A stretch of DNA of 32,325 bases from Deltaproteobacteria bacterium (GTDB lineage: Bacteria > Desulfobacterota > Desulfomonilia > UBA1062), in contig WFSG01000031.1 of assembly GCA_015486075.1 (NCBI GenBank), positions 1 through 32,325 on the forward strand, given 5' to 3'. Shown here piece by piece: positions 6,954-30,338 of the stretch. A program made the translations under genes and the position numbers. Below the pieces are notes generated by a model. The model made no database searches, had not been told where the DNA came from, and was given only the letters and a program-made list of their open reading frames with translations. How positions within the stretch are numbered: the stretch's first letter is position 1; each line of letters starts with the position of its first letter.

Positions 6954-6963
6954 CAGAGAGGCC

Positions 6964-7373
6964 ATGGGGTATGCCTTGGAAGTACTATCGAGAAGGGCCA
7001 TATCCTCGGCAGAACTAAAAAAAAACTTCAAGACAGGCATGCAACAGAAGATGTAATCGATGCCACCATATCCAGGCTGAAAGAACTTGGCTATATTAAC
7101 GACGAAGAATACGCCGTGCGCAGAGCGCAGGTGCTTGCATCAAGGGGATACGGCAACTATTACATACAATATACCCTTGAGAGAATAGGCCTTCCGGAGG
7201 ATCTCGTGGAAATGGCAACTAAGAAGGCTACCGAGATCCTTGGAGAGGAGGATAGAATAAAGGCCGTGATGAGGAAGAAGATTAACCTTGATAAAGAAAG
7301 GCTTATTAGGCATCTTTCTTACAGGGGTTTCAACATGGAGACCATACTAAGGGTTATGAAAGAGGAGATTTGA
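6964..7373 (+). CDS. recX: Regulatory protein RecX, split by an apparent frameshift in an A9 run
   Basis: RecX binds RecA filaments and modulates RecA activity. The N-terminal part starts at ATG 6964 (MGYALEVLSRRAISSAELKK), just after GAGAGG. This frame then meets a stop at 7054-7056. The rest of RecX, including TEDVIDATISRLKELGY and NDEEYAVRRAQVL, continues in the next frame to 7373. The switch falls in a run of nine A at 7017-7025. One extra A, or a -1 slip, would join them into a normal ~136-residue protein. Without the shift, only an internal GTG at 7116 gives an 85-residue fragment. Causes could be a sequencing error, slippage by polymerase or ribosome, or true mutation. The stop overlaps alaS (TGATG). 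Confidence 0.82.
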
Positions 7374-26121: not shown

Positions 26122-26655
26122 TCACTTCATGACATAGGTGTAAAGGTATACCCTTGGATTAGAGCCTGATGGCCTTTGGCTTACACGCCTAAACAGGTGA
26201 CTATCCAGGCGTGGCCTGGAAGTTGAGATGTAATAAAAACGTCCTTTGGGGTTTAGAGATCTCCTTACCGCTTGTTCCAGCTCTGTAATGGGTGAGAATG
26301 CCCTTGACATAAGGGCATGGAACCTCTTTGTTGTATCTTTTAGCGGATCACCCTCGAGTATAAATGTATTATCCAGGCCCAGTTTGTCTCTTACGTGCTC
26401 CAAGAACACGGCCTTATTATGTGCCCTTTCTATGAGGTATACGTGGGAGTTGGGATGCAATATGCTGAATATTATTCCCATGAGCCCAGAACCTGCCCCA
26501 AGGTCTGCTATCTCAGCCTCCCTTATGTCACCGAGGAGAGAAACAGTCTCTTCTGCAAGGCCTTCAATATTATCAAGGGCACCCCGTCCCAGTAATCCCA
26601 GACCCTTGTTAAAGGTCCTTACCTCTGATATCCATGTACTTATGCTAGCTTTCAT
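26122..26655 (-). CDS. rsmG: 16S rRNA (guanine-N7) methyltransferase RsmG
   Basis: SAM-dependent enzyme expected to make m7G527 in 16S rRNA. The SAM-binding loop is EIADLGAGSGLMGIIFSIL, followed by YLIERAHNKAVFLEHVRDKL and, later, HALMSRAFSPITELEQ, all in the order seen in RsmG. At 177 residues it is about 25-30 shorter than the usual protein, mainly at the N-terminus, where FNKGLGLLG stands in for the usual NLT segment. The ATG overlaps the mnmE stop (TAATG), giving the widespread mnmE-rsmG order. It is the last gene of the rpmH operon. The 83-base gap to hsp20 holds only a weak A/T run. Confidence 0.85.
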   Translation of the reverse strand: MKASISTWISEVRTFNKGLGLLGRGALDNIEGLAEETVSLLGDIREAEIADLGAGSGLMGIIFSILHPNSHVYLIERAHNKAVFLEHVRDKLGLDNTFILEGDPLKDTTKRFHALMSRAFSPITELEQAVRRSLNPKGRFYYISTSRPRLDSHLFRRVSQRPSGSNPRVYLYTYVMK

Positions 26656-27968
26656 TACTTTCCCACACAGAACTTGGAAAAGATTTTTTCAACCACGTCC
26701 AGGTTTATCTCGTCCCCGGTAAGCTCGTTTAGTGCAGATAGTGCTTCTCTTATATCGATGGTGACTGCGTCGAGCGTTAAACCCGAATCAAGTGTTTCTA
26801 TGCCTGAACGTACGTAGGACATCGCGCGCTTCATGAGGTTTACGTGCCTTTCCAGGAATACCATTGGTGCGTTGTCAGGTATATCGCGCGTTATAATGTC
26901 GATGAGTCTGTCTATACCCCAGTTATACTTGGCACTAACCTTGACCACGTCCATGTCTCCTAGGAGCGGTGCATTGTAGTCACAGAGATCTACCTTGTTT
27001 ATTACCAGTACGGTTCTCTTGCCTATATTGAGCCACCTGGTCTCTTGCCTGGAGATACCCCTTGTTGCATCAACCACGTATAAGACTAGGTCTGCCTTAC
27101 CTAGAATATCCATCGTCTTCTCTATGCCTATCTGCTCAGGACCCTGAGCAACTTCCTTTATGCCAGCTGTGTCGTAGAATACGAACTCCAGTCCCTTTAT
27201 CAGGACATGCTCGCTCACAAGGTCTCTCGTGGTGCCTTCTACCTCATGCACGATAGCCCTTGGATAGCCTACTATGGCATTAAAGAGTGAAGACTTTCCC
27301 GCGTTTGGGAGACCGGCTATGGTGGTAACAACACCGTTAAACATGCTGTGGCCAGCATCGGATGACTCCACCAGGGAATTGATTGATTCCATGACCTGCT
27401 TGAGGGACCGTTTTATCTCTTGTTCATCTACTTCGTTGTCAGATACAAAGGAGGCCTCTATATCCGTTAGTATGTCAAGGAGTTTCTCCCTGATCCCGTA
27501 TATTTCAGAGGAGAGCTCTCCTTTAAGTGTCTTTAAGGCCATGTCAAGCCCGAGCAGGCTCTTGGCGCCTATAAGTGCACCCACTGCCTCTGCCTCCACC
27601 AAGCTCATCTTTTTATTGAGGAACGCTCTCATGGTGAATTCACCAGGCAATGCAACGCGTGCCAGGCCGGTAACACTTATCCTTTCCATTATCCTGGCAA
27701 CGATTAATGGGTTGGCATGACAGCCTATCTCTGCAAGGTCCTCGCCTGTATAGGAATGTGGTTCTGGATGAAGGCAGACCGTGACCTGGTCTATGATGTC
27801 TTTATCTCTACCTTGAATCTCTGAGAGGACCTGCATGTGGTCAGGGAAAGAATGACGTGGCGTGATTATCGAGAGTATCTCGCGCGTCCTGTTTCCGCTA
27901 AGCCTTACTATGCTTATACCCCCGTATCCCCTGGGGGTGGATTCTGCGTATATCGTATCCTCTAGGAT
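26655..27968 (-). CDS. mnmE: tRNA modification GTPase MnmE, with a probable non-canonical AUC start
   Basis: Works with MnmG to place the cmnm5 group on U34 of certain tRNAs. The N-terminal folate-binding domain begins EDTIYAESTPRGYGGISIVR and later has HSYTGEDLAEIGCHA. The G domain shows G1 GLPNAGKSSLFNAI (near residue 220), DTAG and NKVD. It ends with the conserved FCVGK. No ATG, GTG, TTG or CTG occurs in frame between the upstream stop and residue 44, and an ATG at 27836 would delete conserved sequence. ATC at 27968 lies seven bases after AAGGAAGG and overlaps the jag stop, so I propose it as the start. A sequencing error is the main alternative. From ATC it is 437 residues, close to normal. 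Confidence 0.88.
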   Translation of the reverse strand: MLEDTIYAESTPRGYGGISIVRLSGNRTREILSIITPRHSFPDHMQVLSEIQGRDKDIIDQVTVCLHPEPHSYTGEDLAEIGCHANPLIVARIMERISVTGLARVALPGEFTMRAFLNKKMSLVEAEAVGALIGAKSLLGLDMALKTLKGELSSEIYGIREKLLDILTDIEASFVSDNEVDEQEIKRSLKQVMESINSLVESSDAGHSMFNGVVTTIAGLPNAGKSSLFNAIVGYPRAIVHEVEGTTRDLVSEHVLIKGLEFVFYDTAGIKEVAQGPEQIGIEKTMDILGKADLVLYVVDATRGISRQETRWLNIGKRTVLVINKVDLCDYNAPLLGDMDVVKVSAKYNWGIDRLIDIITRDIPDNAPMVFLERHVNLMKRAMSYVRSGIETLDSGLTLDAVTIDIREALSALNELTGDEINLDVVEKIFSKFCVGK

Positions 27969-28708
27969 TTTGACGCCTTCCTTGGAGATATTACTATACT
28001 TTTGTACAGGCCTTCACCAATACTCTTTGTGTCAACCTTGCTGTCGTTCTTGAGTGCTAGGTGTATTATGCGCCTGTCGTATGGGTTCATCTTCTCAAGG
28101 GATATTGCCTTGCCCGTACGCTTTACCTTCTGGCCAAGCCTTATGGCAATTGTTTTCAGGTGTTCAACGTGCCTTTTCCTGTAACCTTGGGCATCTATCC
28201 TTATGCGCGTTGAATTCTCAGAGCCCTTGTTTACCATTCTGTTGATTAGAAACTGCAGGGCATCAAGGGTCTTTCCGTGCTTGCCTATTATGATCCCGAT
28301 ACCTTTACCGGTTATCTCTATGTAGTTATTGACATTTATCTTAGACTCTGCGTCAATGTGCATTAGTTTCAGTACCTTGGTAAGCATGTCCTTTGCCCTT
28401 AGCAAGGTCTCCATGTCTTTATTCGATGTTTCTACCGACGCCTTATCATTATTTACTTCATTTACTTCTTTACCCTGCATTTCGTGGTCGGCCTGGTTTG
28501 ACCGGCCAAGTACTTCTTCATCCTCGCTATTAAGTCTTCTTGCCATGATCTTTGCATTTTTTTGTCCCATAAGGCCGAATAAACCCTTGGAGCCCTCTGA
28601 TATTACCTTTATGTCTAGCTCTTCGAATGGCACCCTGAATTCCTTCATCGCCGCAACTATTGCCTCGTCTACTGACTTTGCCTCGAATTCCTTGTACTCT
28701 GATGTCAT
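27962..28708 (-). CDS. jag: RNA-binding protein Jag/KhpB
   Basis: Cytoplasmic RNA-binding protein that often follows yidC and is linked to control of cell elongation and sporulation genes in other bacteria. The N-terminal Jag domain is present (EYKEFEAKSVDEAIVAAMKE, then SEGSKGLFGLMGQKNAKI). An acidic, Glu/Asn-rich linker follows. The KH domain has the GxxG loop in GIIIGKHGKTLDALQ. The R3H domain at the end has NPYDRRIIHLAL. I chose ATG 28708, six bases after AAGGA; an ORF extension to 28777 runs into yidC. The length of 248 residues is normal. The last seven bases overlap the proposed mnmE start. Confidence 0.93.
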   Translation of the reverse strand: MTSEYKEFEAKSVDEAIVAAMKEFRVPFEELDIKVISEGSKGLFGLMGQKNAKIMARRLNSEDEEVLGRSNQADHEMQGKEVNEVNNDKASVETSNKDMETLLRAKDMLTKVLKLMHIDAESKINVNNYIEITGKGIGIIIGKHGKTLDALQFLINRMVNKGSENSTRIRIDAQGYRKRHVEHLKTIAIRLGQKVKRTGKAISLEKMNPYDRRIIHLALKNDSKVDTKSIGEGLYKSIVISPRKASKS

Positions 28709-28724: not shown

Positions 28725-30338
28725 CTATATAGTATGTACGCGATTGATGTATGCCTGCTGCGCAATCGAGAGGACATTACTCACCAGCCAGTATATTACC
28801 AAGCCCGAAGGGAAATTAAGGAAAAAGAAGGTGAATACTATGGGCATGAAAAGCATCATCTTTTGCTGTGTGGGATCCCCTCCCGTTGGTGTCATCTTTT
28901 GCTGGATGAACCAGCTCAGGCCCATCAAAATAGGCGTGATGTAATACGGGTCCTTTGCCGACAGGTCGGGTAACCAGGTACCCACGATGTGGAAAGGGGT
29001 GTGCCTTAGTTCAATAGCTGAGAGGAATATCCTGTAAAGTGCAAACAAGATTGGTATCTGGAGAAGCATGGGTAGGCAACCACCCATTGGATTGACCTTG
29101 TGCTCGGAGTATAGCTTCATCAGTTCCTGGTTCAGTTTCGACTTGTCATCCTTGTACTTGGCTTGTATCTCTTTCATGAGGGGCTGGATCTTCTGCAGTT
29201 CCTTCATGGACTTGAAACTCTTCAGGCTCAGTGGATACAACAGGAGCTTGATTATGACAGTGAGTATGATGATTGACCAACCGTAACTGTGTACGTAAGT
29301 GTGTATCCAATTAAGCGATATAAGCATTGGCTTTGCAAAGAAGTCAAAGAATCCGAAATCCAGTGCCTTCTTCAGGTCATAGCCGGCTAGCTTGAGGTTC
29401 TTGAGTTCCTTTGGGCCTATGTAGAAGAGCATGTCCAGGGTTTGTTTCTTGCCGGCAGGTATGGTGATTTCGCCAAGGCCGTAGACCAAGTCCACGTCCA
29501 AGTTGCTGGTTCTTTTTATGTAAAGCTCCGAGTCAAAGGGATCTTTTACAATGAGCGTTTTCAGAAAGTACTTATCCTCGAAGCCGAACCATTTTATGGG
29601 TCCCTCGAACTGTCTGAACTCGCCTGGTTTCTTTATCTTGGAGATTTTGAATTCCTCGAGGTGCTTGCCGTTTAGTAATACCGGTCCTTCAAAGATATAG
29701 CGGGATCTTGATTTTTTCTTGCTGTATGCCTCTTCCATGCTCACGTTTGCGTCAAATACCATGGGCTCTTTTGTCGTATTGGTAAATATTGTCTTGTAGC
29801 CTATCTTGTAGGTGTCAGGACTTATCGTGTACACGTGGGTTATGGTGAGACCACCCATATTGGGCGATGTGAACCTGAGCTCAACCTTTCTTCCTTTTAC
29901 TTCTATAATGGAACTTGCCTTGGTCTCGTAGTTGATAGAGGATGTGTCCAGGCCTCCCTTTATCCCGAGCCTGGGCATGCCTGTATGTATCATCTCCACG
30001 AGAGGGGAATCTGGTTTCAACGTCTCCTTGTACTTTTTCAGCTTTAGGGATAAGAGCTCTGCCCCCCTTGTATTCCAGACCGCCCTGTAGAGAGGCGTGT
30101 CCACCACTATCTTCCTACCAGGAGAACTCTCATGCTTGCCTGCCTTGGCAAGACCCTTGGTTACACTAGCCGGTATCTCTGGTCTTGATGCTTTTTTTTC
30201 AGTTGTAACACTTACCTTTTTTTCAGGTGCATTTGTTGGTAATGGTTTTTTTGTATTTGGACGGACAAACAACATGTCCCAGAGCAGCAGTATGGCAATC
30301 GATAGTACAATGGCTATTAGTGTCCTTTTCTCTTCCAT
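28725..30338 (-). CDS. yidC: Membrane protein insertase YidC
   Basis: Inserts proteins into the inner membrane, alone or with SecYEG. The Gram-negative long form is present: an N-terminal membrane helix (TLIAIVLSIAILLLWDMLFV), then a ~300-residue periplasmic domain after a low-complexity linker. The conserved C-terminal five-helix core follows (YGWSIIILTVIIKLLLYPLS, NPMGGCLPMLLQIPILFALY, FFLNFPSGLVIYWLVSNVLS). The length of 537 residues is normal. It lies 23 bases after yidD and just before jag, the classic order. A GAGGAG site lies about 10 bases before the ATG. Confidence 0.97.
   Translation of the reverse strand: MEEKRTLIAIVLSIAILLLWDMLFVRPNTKKPLPTNAPEKKVSVTTEKKASRPEIPASVTKGLAKAGKHESSPGRKIVVDTPLYRAVWNTRGAELLSLKLKKYKETLKPDSPLVEMIHTGMPRLGIKGGLDTSSINYETKASSIIEVKGRKVELRFTSPNMGGLTITHVYTISPDTYKIGYKTIFTNTTKEPMVFDANVSMEEAYSKKKSRSRYIFEGPVLLNGKHLEEFKISKIKKPGEFRQFEGPIKWFGFEDKYFLKTLIVKDPFDSELYIKRTSNLDVDLVYGLGEITIPAGKKQTLDMLFYIGPKELKNLKLAGYDLKKALDFGFFDFFAKPMLISLNWIHTYVHSYGWSIIILTVIIKLLLYPLSLKSFKSMKELQKIQPLMKEIQAKYKDDKSKLNQELMKLYSEHKVNPMGGCLPMLLQIPILFALYRIFLSAIELRHTPFHIVGTWLPDLSAKDPYYITPILMGLSWFIQQKMTPTGGDPTQQKMMLFMPIVFTFFFLNFPSGLVIYWLVSNVLSIAQQAYINRVHTI

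Follow-up and report, generated by a model that had tools for sequence, protein, structure and literature searches.

Conserved AUA/AUC codons as the predicted mnmE start at the jag-mnmE junction in a family of Desulfobacterota

The mnmE reading frame and its junction with jag

The window analysed here, a stretch of 32,325 nucleotides (contig WFSG01000031.1, positions 1 to 32,325), carries on its minus strand the gene for the KH/R3H protein Jag and, overlapping its end in another frame, mnmE, for which a non-canonical AUC start is predicted. The features of the junction, with the evidence on which each assignment rests, are as follows.

26655..27968, minus strand: mnmE coding sequence, 437 codons counted from ATC (Pfam domains and whole-genome match to relatives)
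27966..27968, minus strand: predicted non-canonical AUC initiation codon of mnmE (AUA/AUC in 22 of 22 collinear family members; same codon in the sister genome)
27969..28016, minus strand: upstream in-frame stretch up to and including the stop TGA 28014-28016, free of ATG, GTG, TTG and CTG
27834..27836, minus strand: first in-frame ATG of mnmE, use of which drops 44 residues including much of TrmE_N (ORF list and Pfam)
27962..28708, minus strand: jag, upstream overlapping gene in another frame (ORF list; conserved C-terminal motifs)
27976..27983, minus strand: Shine-Dalgarno (SD)-like AAGGAAGG with a seven-base spacer to AUC, within the Jag P-R-K codons (sequence, duplex energy and AGG preference)

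Read directly, the mnmE frame spans from TGA 28014-28016 down to 26655, and ATG, GTG, TTG and CTG are all absent between this stop and the ATG at 27834-27836, which confirms the claim of an earlier note on this DNA that mnmE has no ordinary start codon. The codons running from the upstream stretch into the gene are AGG CCT GTA CAA AAG TAT AGT AAT ATC TCC AAG GAA GGC GTC AAA ATC CTA GAG GAT ACG ATA. From ATC 27966-27968 to the first ATG there are 44 codons, exactly the stretch by which, according to the same note, a gene caller would trim the protein. MnmE matches Pfam TrmE_N and MnmE_helical at full model length and MMR_HSR1 over positions 3-113 of 113, and its residues 1-437 are matched in relatives by whole-genome comparison. 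Because model position 1 of TrmE_N falls at open-frame residue 20 and ATC is residue 16, placing the domain four residues downstream, translation of a whole MnmE must begin at ATC 27966-27968 or immediately ahead of it. A second, earlier in-frame ATC at 27987-27989 (AAT ATC TCC) was rejected as the start; it is worse placed, with AAGGAAGG coming after it, and is not the codon that aligns with AUH (AUA, AUC or AUU) in the family. Reading frame, domain boundary and the conservation described below together indicate that mnmE very probably initiates at an AUH codon, AUC in this genome.

The jag stop TAG occupies 27962-27964, and the start of jag at ATG 28706-28708 is our choice within a mechanically called ORF that begins at 28777. 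The earlier note had the ATC overlapping the jag stop; the two genes do overlap by seven bases (ATCCTAG), but the ATC codon itself shares no base with TAG. The C-terminal motifs of Jag, MNPYDRRIIHLALK and P[RK][RK], are conserved across the family. The SD-like sequence lies seven bases before ATC, as had been noted, and its duplex energy of -7.6 equals the genome median of -7.6, calculated with an anti-SD assumed to be E. coli-like and not read from the 16S rRNA. At the Arg codon within this site, AGG is used in 19 of the 22 family jag genes, whereas the rest of jag has AGG at 133 of 459 Arg codons (Fisher p = 8e-8, a value overstated since the sequences are related); the neighbouring Lys codon has no codon bias in these genes. 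Conserved RNA structure is absent from the jag-mnmE junction (alifold z = 0.16).

Start codons of mnmE, hflX and infC in the family and the phylum

Our family sample comprises 24 genomes, 23 of them with the 5' end of mnmE; 22 are collinear and carry AUH, the exception being G009. The aligned start codon in the 22 collinear relatives is ATA (13) or ATC (9), positioned one codon further up in G013, and none of the 22 has ATG, GTG or TTG in frame anywhere from the upstream stop to the mnmE start, although CTG occurs in frame in two of them, more than 130 codons upstream. Such uniformity exceeds what chance would give. The sister genome (G001, identical to locus L006; QMLJ01000121.1, a Guaymas MAG with a 77% identical MnmE) reads GAGGAAGGCGTCAAAATCCTAGAAGAT, in which both the ATC and its context recur. 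The assignment of the start to ATC 27968 in the earlier note is supported, as neither of the two refuting outcomes that it named arose: a corrected base is not borne out, the sister genome having been assembled independently, and close relatives have no ordinary start at this position. Judged by these genomes, the missing ordinary start is not a sequencing error. Beyond what that note had described, the AUH trait is family-wide, with A or C alternating as the third base, and hflX shares it. In G009, the sole family genome without AUH at the site, jag ends in TGA, there is a two-base difference in spacing, the SD-bearing AGG is replaced by CGC, and a TTG preceded by AAGAAGG lies 12 codons upstream. 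Outside the family, most of the mnmE genes examined have ATG, GTG or TTG near the domain start, with ATG throughout the sister family f2; no AUH start of mnmE was recognised in 26 further genomes of the phylum or, outside the genus, in any locus that could be read, other phyla included.

The jag stop overlaps or adjoins the AUH codon in the family and is at most about 8 bases away in the collinear relatives. In 11 of 22 genomes, A-T-A combines the final A of a Lys or Arg codon with the T-A of the jag stop (AAATAG, CGATAA) and is thus partly fixed by these codons, which counts against an independent conservation of AUH. In the remaining genomes jag has an additional codon, for Ser or Tyr (AAA TCC TAG, AAA TAT TAG, CGA TCG TAA) and AUA/AUC is still present; in G016 jag ends earlier, yet AUA/AUC is retained. 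AUH is therefore kept both with an overlapping jag stop (ATAG/ATAA) and with one placed three bases further on, and since the codon persists while the stop moves, it is not a mere by-product of the jag stop.

Using a frame-specific fifth-order Markov model, we scored 2.11 of the 2.30 Mb of the source genome (G000; about 1700 genes) for strong coding signal ahead of a gene's first ATG, GTG or TTG. Few genes pass, in the order prfB, mnmE, recX, a tetR-like gene, a DUF1573-like gene and infC, with hflX tenth. The top-ranked prfB (RF2; C35, plus strand, about 123066), with its usual CTTTGA +1 frameshift site, serves as a positive control. In the source genome infC reads GGAGGTTGCT-ATA, so that the infC AUU start cited in the earlier note proves an apt parallel, and hflX reads GGAGGGAGGCAGT-ATA (locus L238; C18, minus strand, reverse-complement coordinate about 43592). 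Given that the scan returned few such genes, among them mnmE, infC and hflX, AUH starts are rare in this genome and are found in translation genes; a genome-wide relaxation of start use was rejected, only a handful of about 1700 genes being headless. Other possible AUH starts with an SD, in genes whose names were read off translations only, are those of the tetR-like gene (AUA; C12, plus strand, about 67238), a DedA-like gene (AUA; C11, minus strand, about 18910) and a TauE-like gene (AUU; C22, plus strand, about 40286).

Two of the scan candidates were set aside. The recX gene, considered as a further AUC start, is frameshifted instead: in the window (6954-7370, plus strand), its canonical N-terminus (ATG 6964, MGYALEVLSRRAISSAELK) is in a different frame from its body, and the frames join at a run of nine A (A9) at 7017-7025. 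Of 14 relatives resolved, 12 show both this A9 and the split between frames, while G013 (A10) and G016 (an extra T) are in frame. The pattern suggests programmed -1 frameshifting or, alternatively, transcriptional slippage from A9 to A10. The DUF1573-like gene (C32, minus strand, reverse-complement coordinate about 64132) is probably not headless, and has an in-frame TGA at an expected Cys (LDIGHT-TGA-GVSIDV); the source genome also has a tRNA-Sec gene (C11:10524-10620), and the protein is possibly a selenoprotein.

The start column of hflX in the family contains ATA (13), ATC (6) and ATT (5), i.e., AUH in 24 of 24 genomes and never ATG, GTG or TTG; that of infC contains ATA (21) and ATC (1), i.e., AUH in 22 of 22. 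In other families of the phylum, hflX has AUH in 13 of 24 genomes, an upper reading because a few of these outgroups have an in-frame ATG, GTG or TTG 4 to 11 codons upstream, with TTG or GTG in f2, ATG or TTG in four others and one unclear case. The corresponding figure for infC is 22 of 30, with ATG in f2 and two others. Since the outgroups carry standard starts in the same column, the hflX column is the start. The AUH case may be stronger for hflX than for mnmE. On the MnmE and HflX tree, start codons changed at least three times in mnmE and at least eight times in hflX, with at least one change in infC; over the three genes this amounts to at least 12 third-base changes, none of them to G. 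The expected share of changes to G is 0.40 (parsimony changes from non-G bases at four-fold sites of mnmE and hflX), so that 12 changes without one to G have a chance of p about 0.002, although mnmE alone, with three changes, gives a weak p of about 0.2. AUG, a single base away, thus seems to be avoided, the evidence coming mainly from hflX.

Alternative explanations

If a sequencing or assembly error hid a true ATG, GTG or TTG, a single base would restore an ordinary start, and the metagenome-style assembly in 49 contigs lends this some initial plausibility; the same ATC in an independent sister genome and AUH in 20 further family genomes refute it and leave its chance negligible. Nearly as improbable is that MnmE begins at the internal ATG 27836 without its first 44 residues, which is what a gene caller limited to ATG, GTG and TTG would choose. 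Such a protein loses the TrmE_N residues DTIYAESTPRGYGGISIVRLSG, conserved in every relative, and this ATG is itself not conserved: across relatives, the anchor is followed by a first NTG anywhere from 16 to 89 codons in. The SD energy of ATG 27836, 0.7, amounts to none. A programmed -1 frameshift, in which ribosomes translating jag slip one base back before the stop and produce a Jag-MnmE fusion, would make an mnmE start unneeded. The placement of mnmE in the -1 frame of jag, AAGGAAGG upstream and a last Lys codon, AAA, that in the source genome can re-pair one base back are all compatible with it. However, the slip site is not conserved, re-pairing fails in relatives with TCG AAA TAG or TCA CGA TCG TAA, and no conserved slippery sequence of the dnaX type precedes the jag stop (AAA TCC TAG, AAA TAG and CGA TCG TAA in relatives). 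A frameshift would moreover not predict the conservation of AUH, and no in-frame jag-mnmE fusion was seen; we regard it as very unlikely.

A far more serious contender accepts the AUH start as real and takes it for a slightly deleterious relic, in which weak initiation and coupling to jag keep MnmE low, with no response to IF3 and no control in common with hflX or infC. The geometry of the jag coupling alone could give enough initiation, and the sets of genes with AUH starts differ between families, mnmE having AUH only in this one (f1). Against a relic, the third base of mnmE, hflX and infC never changes to G over a deep tree, as expected if AUG is avoided, and IF3 is known from E. coli and Streptomyces to discriminate against codons of this kind (PMC5472188). 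We consider it plausible that the codon is a relic, at somewhat below even chances.

Proposed coupling to jag, IF3 and known systems

The explanation that we favour overall, with good though not complete confidence, is a conserved weak start of the infC type, an AUH codon discriminated against by IF3, with mnmE coupled to jag. According to this model, translation of mnmE would begin at a genuine AUC (in the family, AUA or AUC), on which the ordinary initiator tRNA (anticodon CAU) would be placed by the SD-like sequence at the end of jag, and ribosomes finishing jag within about 0-8 bases of AUH would probably help initiation. As a third-base-mismatched codon, AUH would be kept by selection, holding MnmE synthesis low and sensitive to IF3 and initiation stringency, and the same class of start would serve infC and hflX in the family. 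ARAGORN identifies three tRNA-CAU genes, one of them showing the features of an initiator, namely an anticodon stem with three G-C pairs, and no tRNA with a UAU anticodon in 2.11 of 2.30 Mb of the source genome; with CAU tRNAs only in this part of the genome, a special initiator tRNA is unlikely. We infer initiation at AUH, coupling to jag, a low MnmE output and the IF3 sensitivity of mnmE. Going by the general mode of action of IF3, the mnmE start is likely sensitive to this factor, and synthesis of MnmE and HflX would be low here and rise as IF3 activity falls. More tentatively, and with the balance tipping against it, infC, hflX and mnmE may form an IF3-controlled translation set in this family, in which IF3 activity sets the levels of HflX and MnmE. 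If true, an IF3 shortage would automatically raise a ribosome-splitting GTPase (HflX) and a tRNA-modifying GTPase (MnmE).

To our knowledge, few bacterial genes start with AUA, AUC or AUU. Gene callers limited to ATG, GTG and TTG would truncate or mis-start such proteins, MnmE by 44 residues in the present case. At overlapping gene junctions of the ATGA type, a downstream gene begins within the stop of its upstream neighbour; similarly, in 11 of 22 genomes the mnmE start and the jag stop form a 4-base overlap, with the difference that the start is AUA (AUAG/AUAA) and not AUG (AUGA). The mnmE case also resembles an earlier prediction that another translation-related GTPase needs an AUU start, which differs in concerning single genomes without a conservation test. 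A conserved AUH start is a known kind, and mnmE and hflX appear to be unreported as members: our search, outside which most subscription journals lay, found no papers on non-AUG starts of either gene.

In Staphylococcus aureus, AUH starts of cvfC1 (AUU), ccpN (AUA) and citZ (AUA) were identified by start-trapped ribosome profiling, and reporters with AUA or AUU starts reach about 10% of the output of AUG, a figure that rises to as much as 30% for ccpN in rich medium (PMC13009471). These cases share with mnmE the conservation of the AUH start (cvfC1 and ccpN), but they involve other genes in another phylum and a strong extended SD, and the text makes no mention of mnmE or hflX (PMC13009471). 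In vitro, IF3 together with EF-G and RRF disfavours third-base mismatches (PMC10158994). A parallel in codon type is infC, whose AUU start in E. coli is repressed by IF3 in an autocontrol (as cited in PMC5472188). Like the AUU, AUA or AUC starts of infC, that of mnmE is an AUH codon with an upstream SD and is conserved across relatives, whereas mnmE has a weaker SD-like sequence, embedded in the coding sequence of jag; because mnmE encodes no initiation factor, its control by IF3 would act in trans and would not be autocontrol. Such control of a gene other than infC has a precedent in Streptomyces sigR, whose conserved non-canonical GUC start is repressed by IF3, infC fidelity mutants raising SigR and extra IF3 lowering it (PMC5472188); it differs from mnmE in having GUC instead of AUH and in encoding an RNA polymerase sigma factor. 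The same study raises, as still open, the question of the full set of genes repressed by IF3 (PMC5472188), for which the AUH starts of mnmE, family-wide, and of hflX, in the family and about half of the other phylum genomes sampled, provide named, testable candidates, all of them translation genes.
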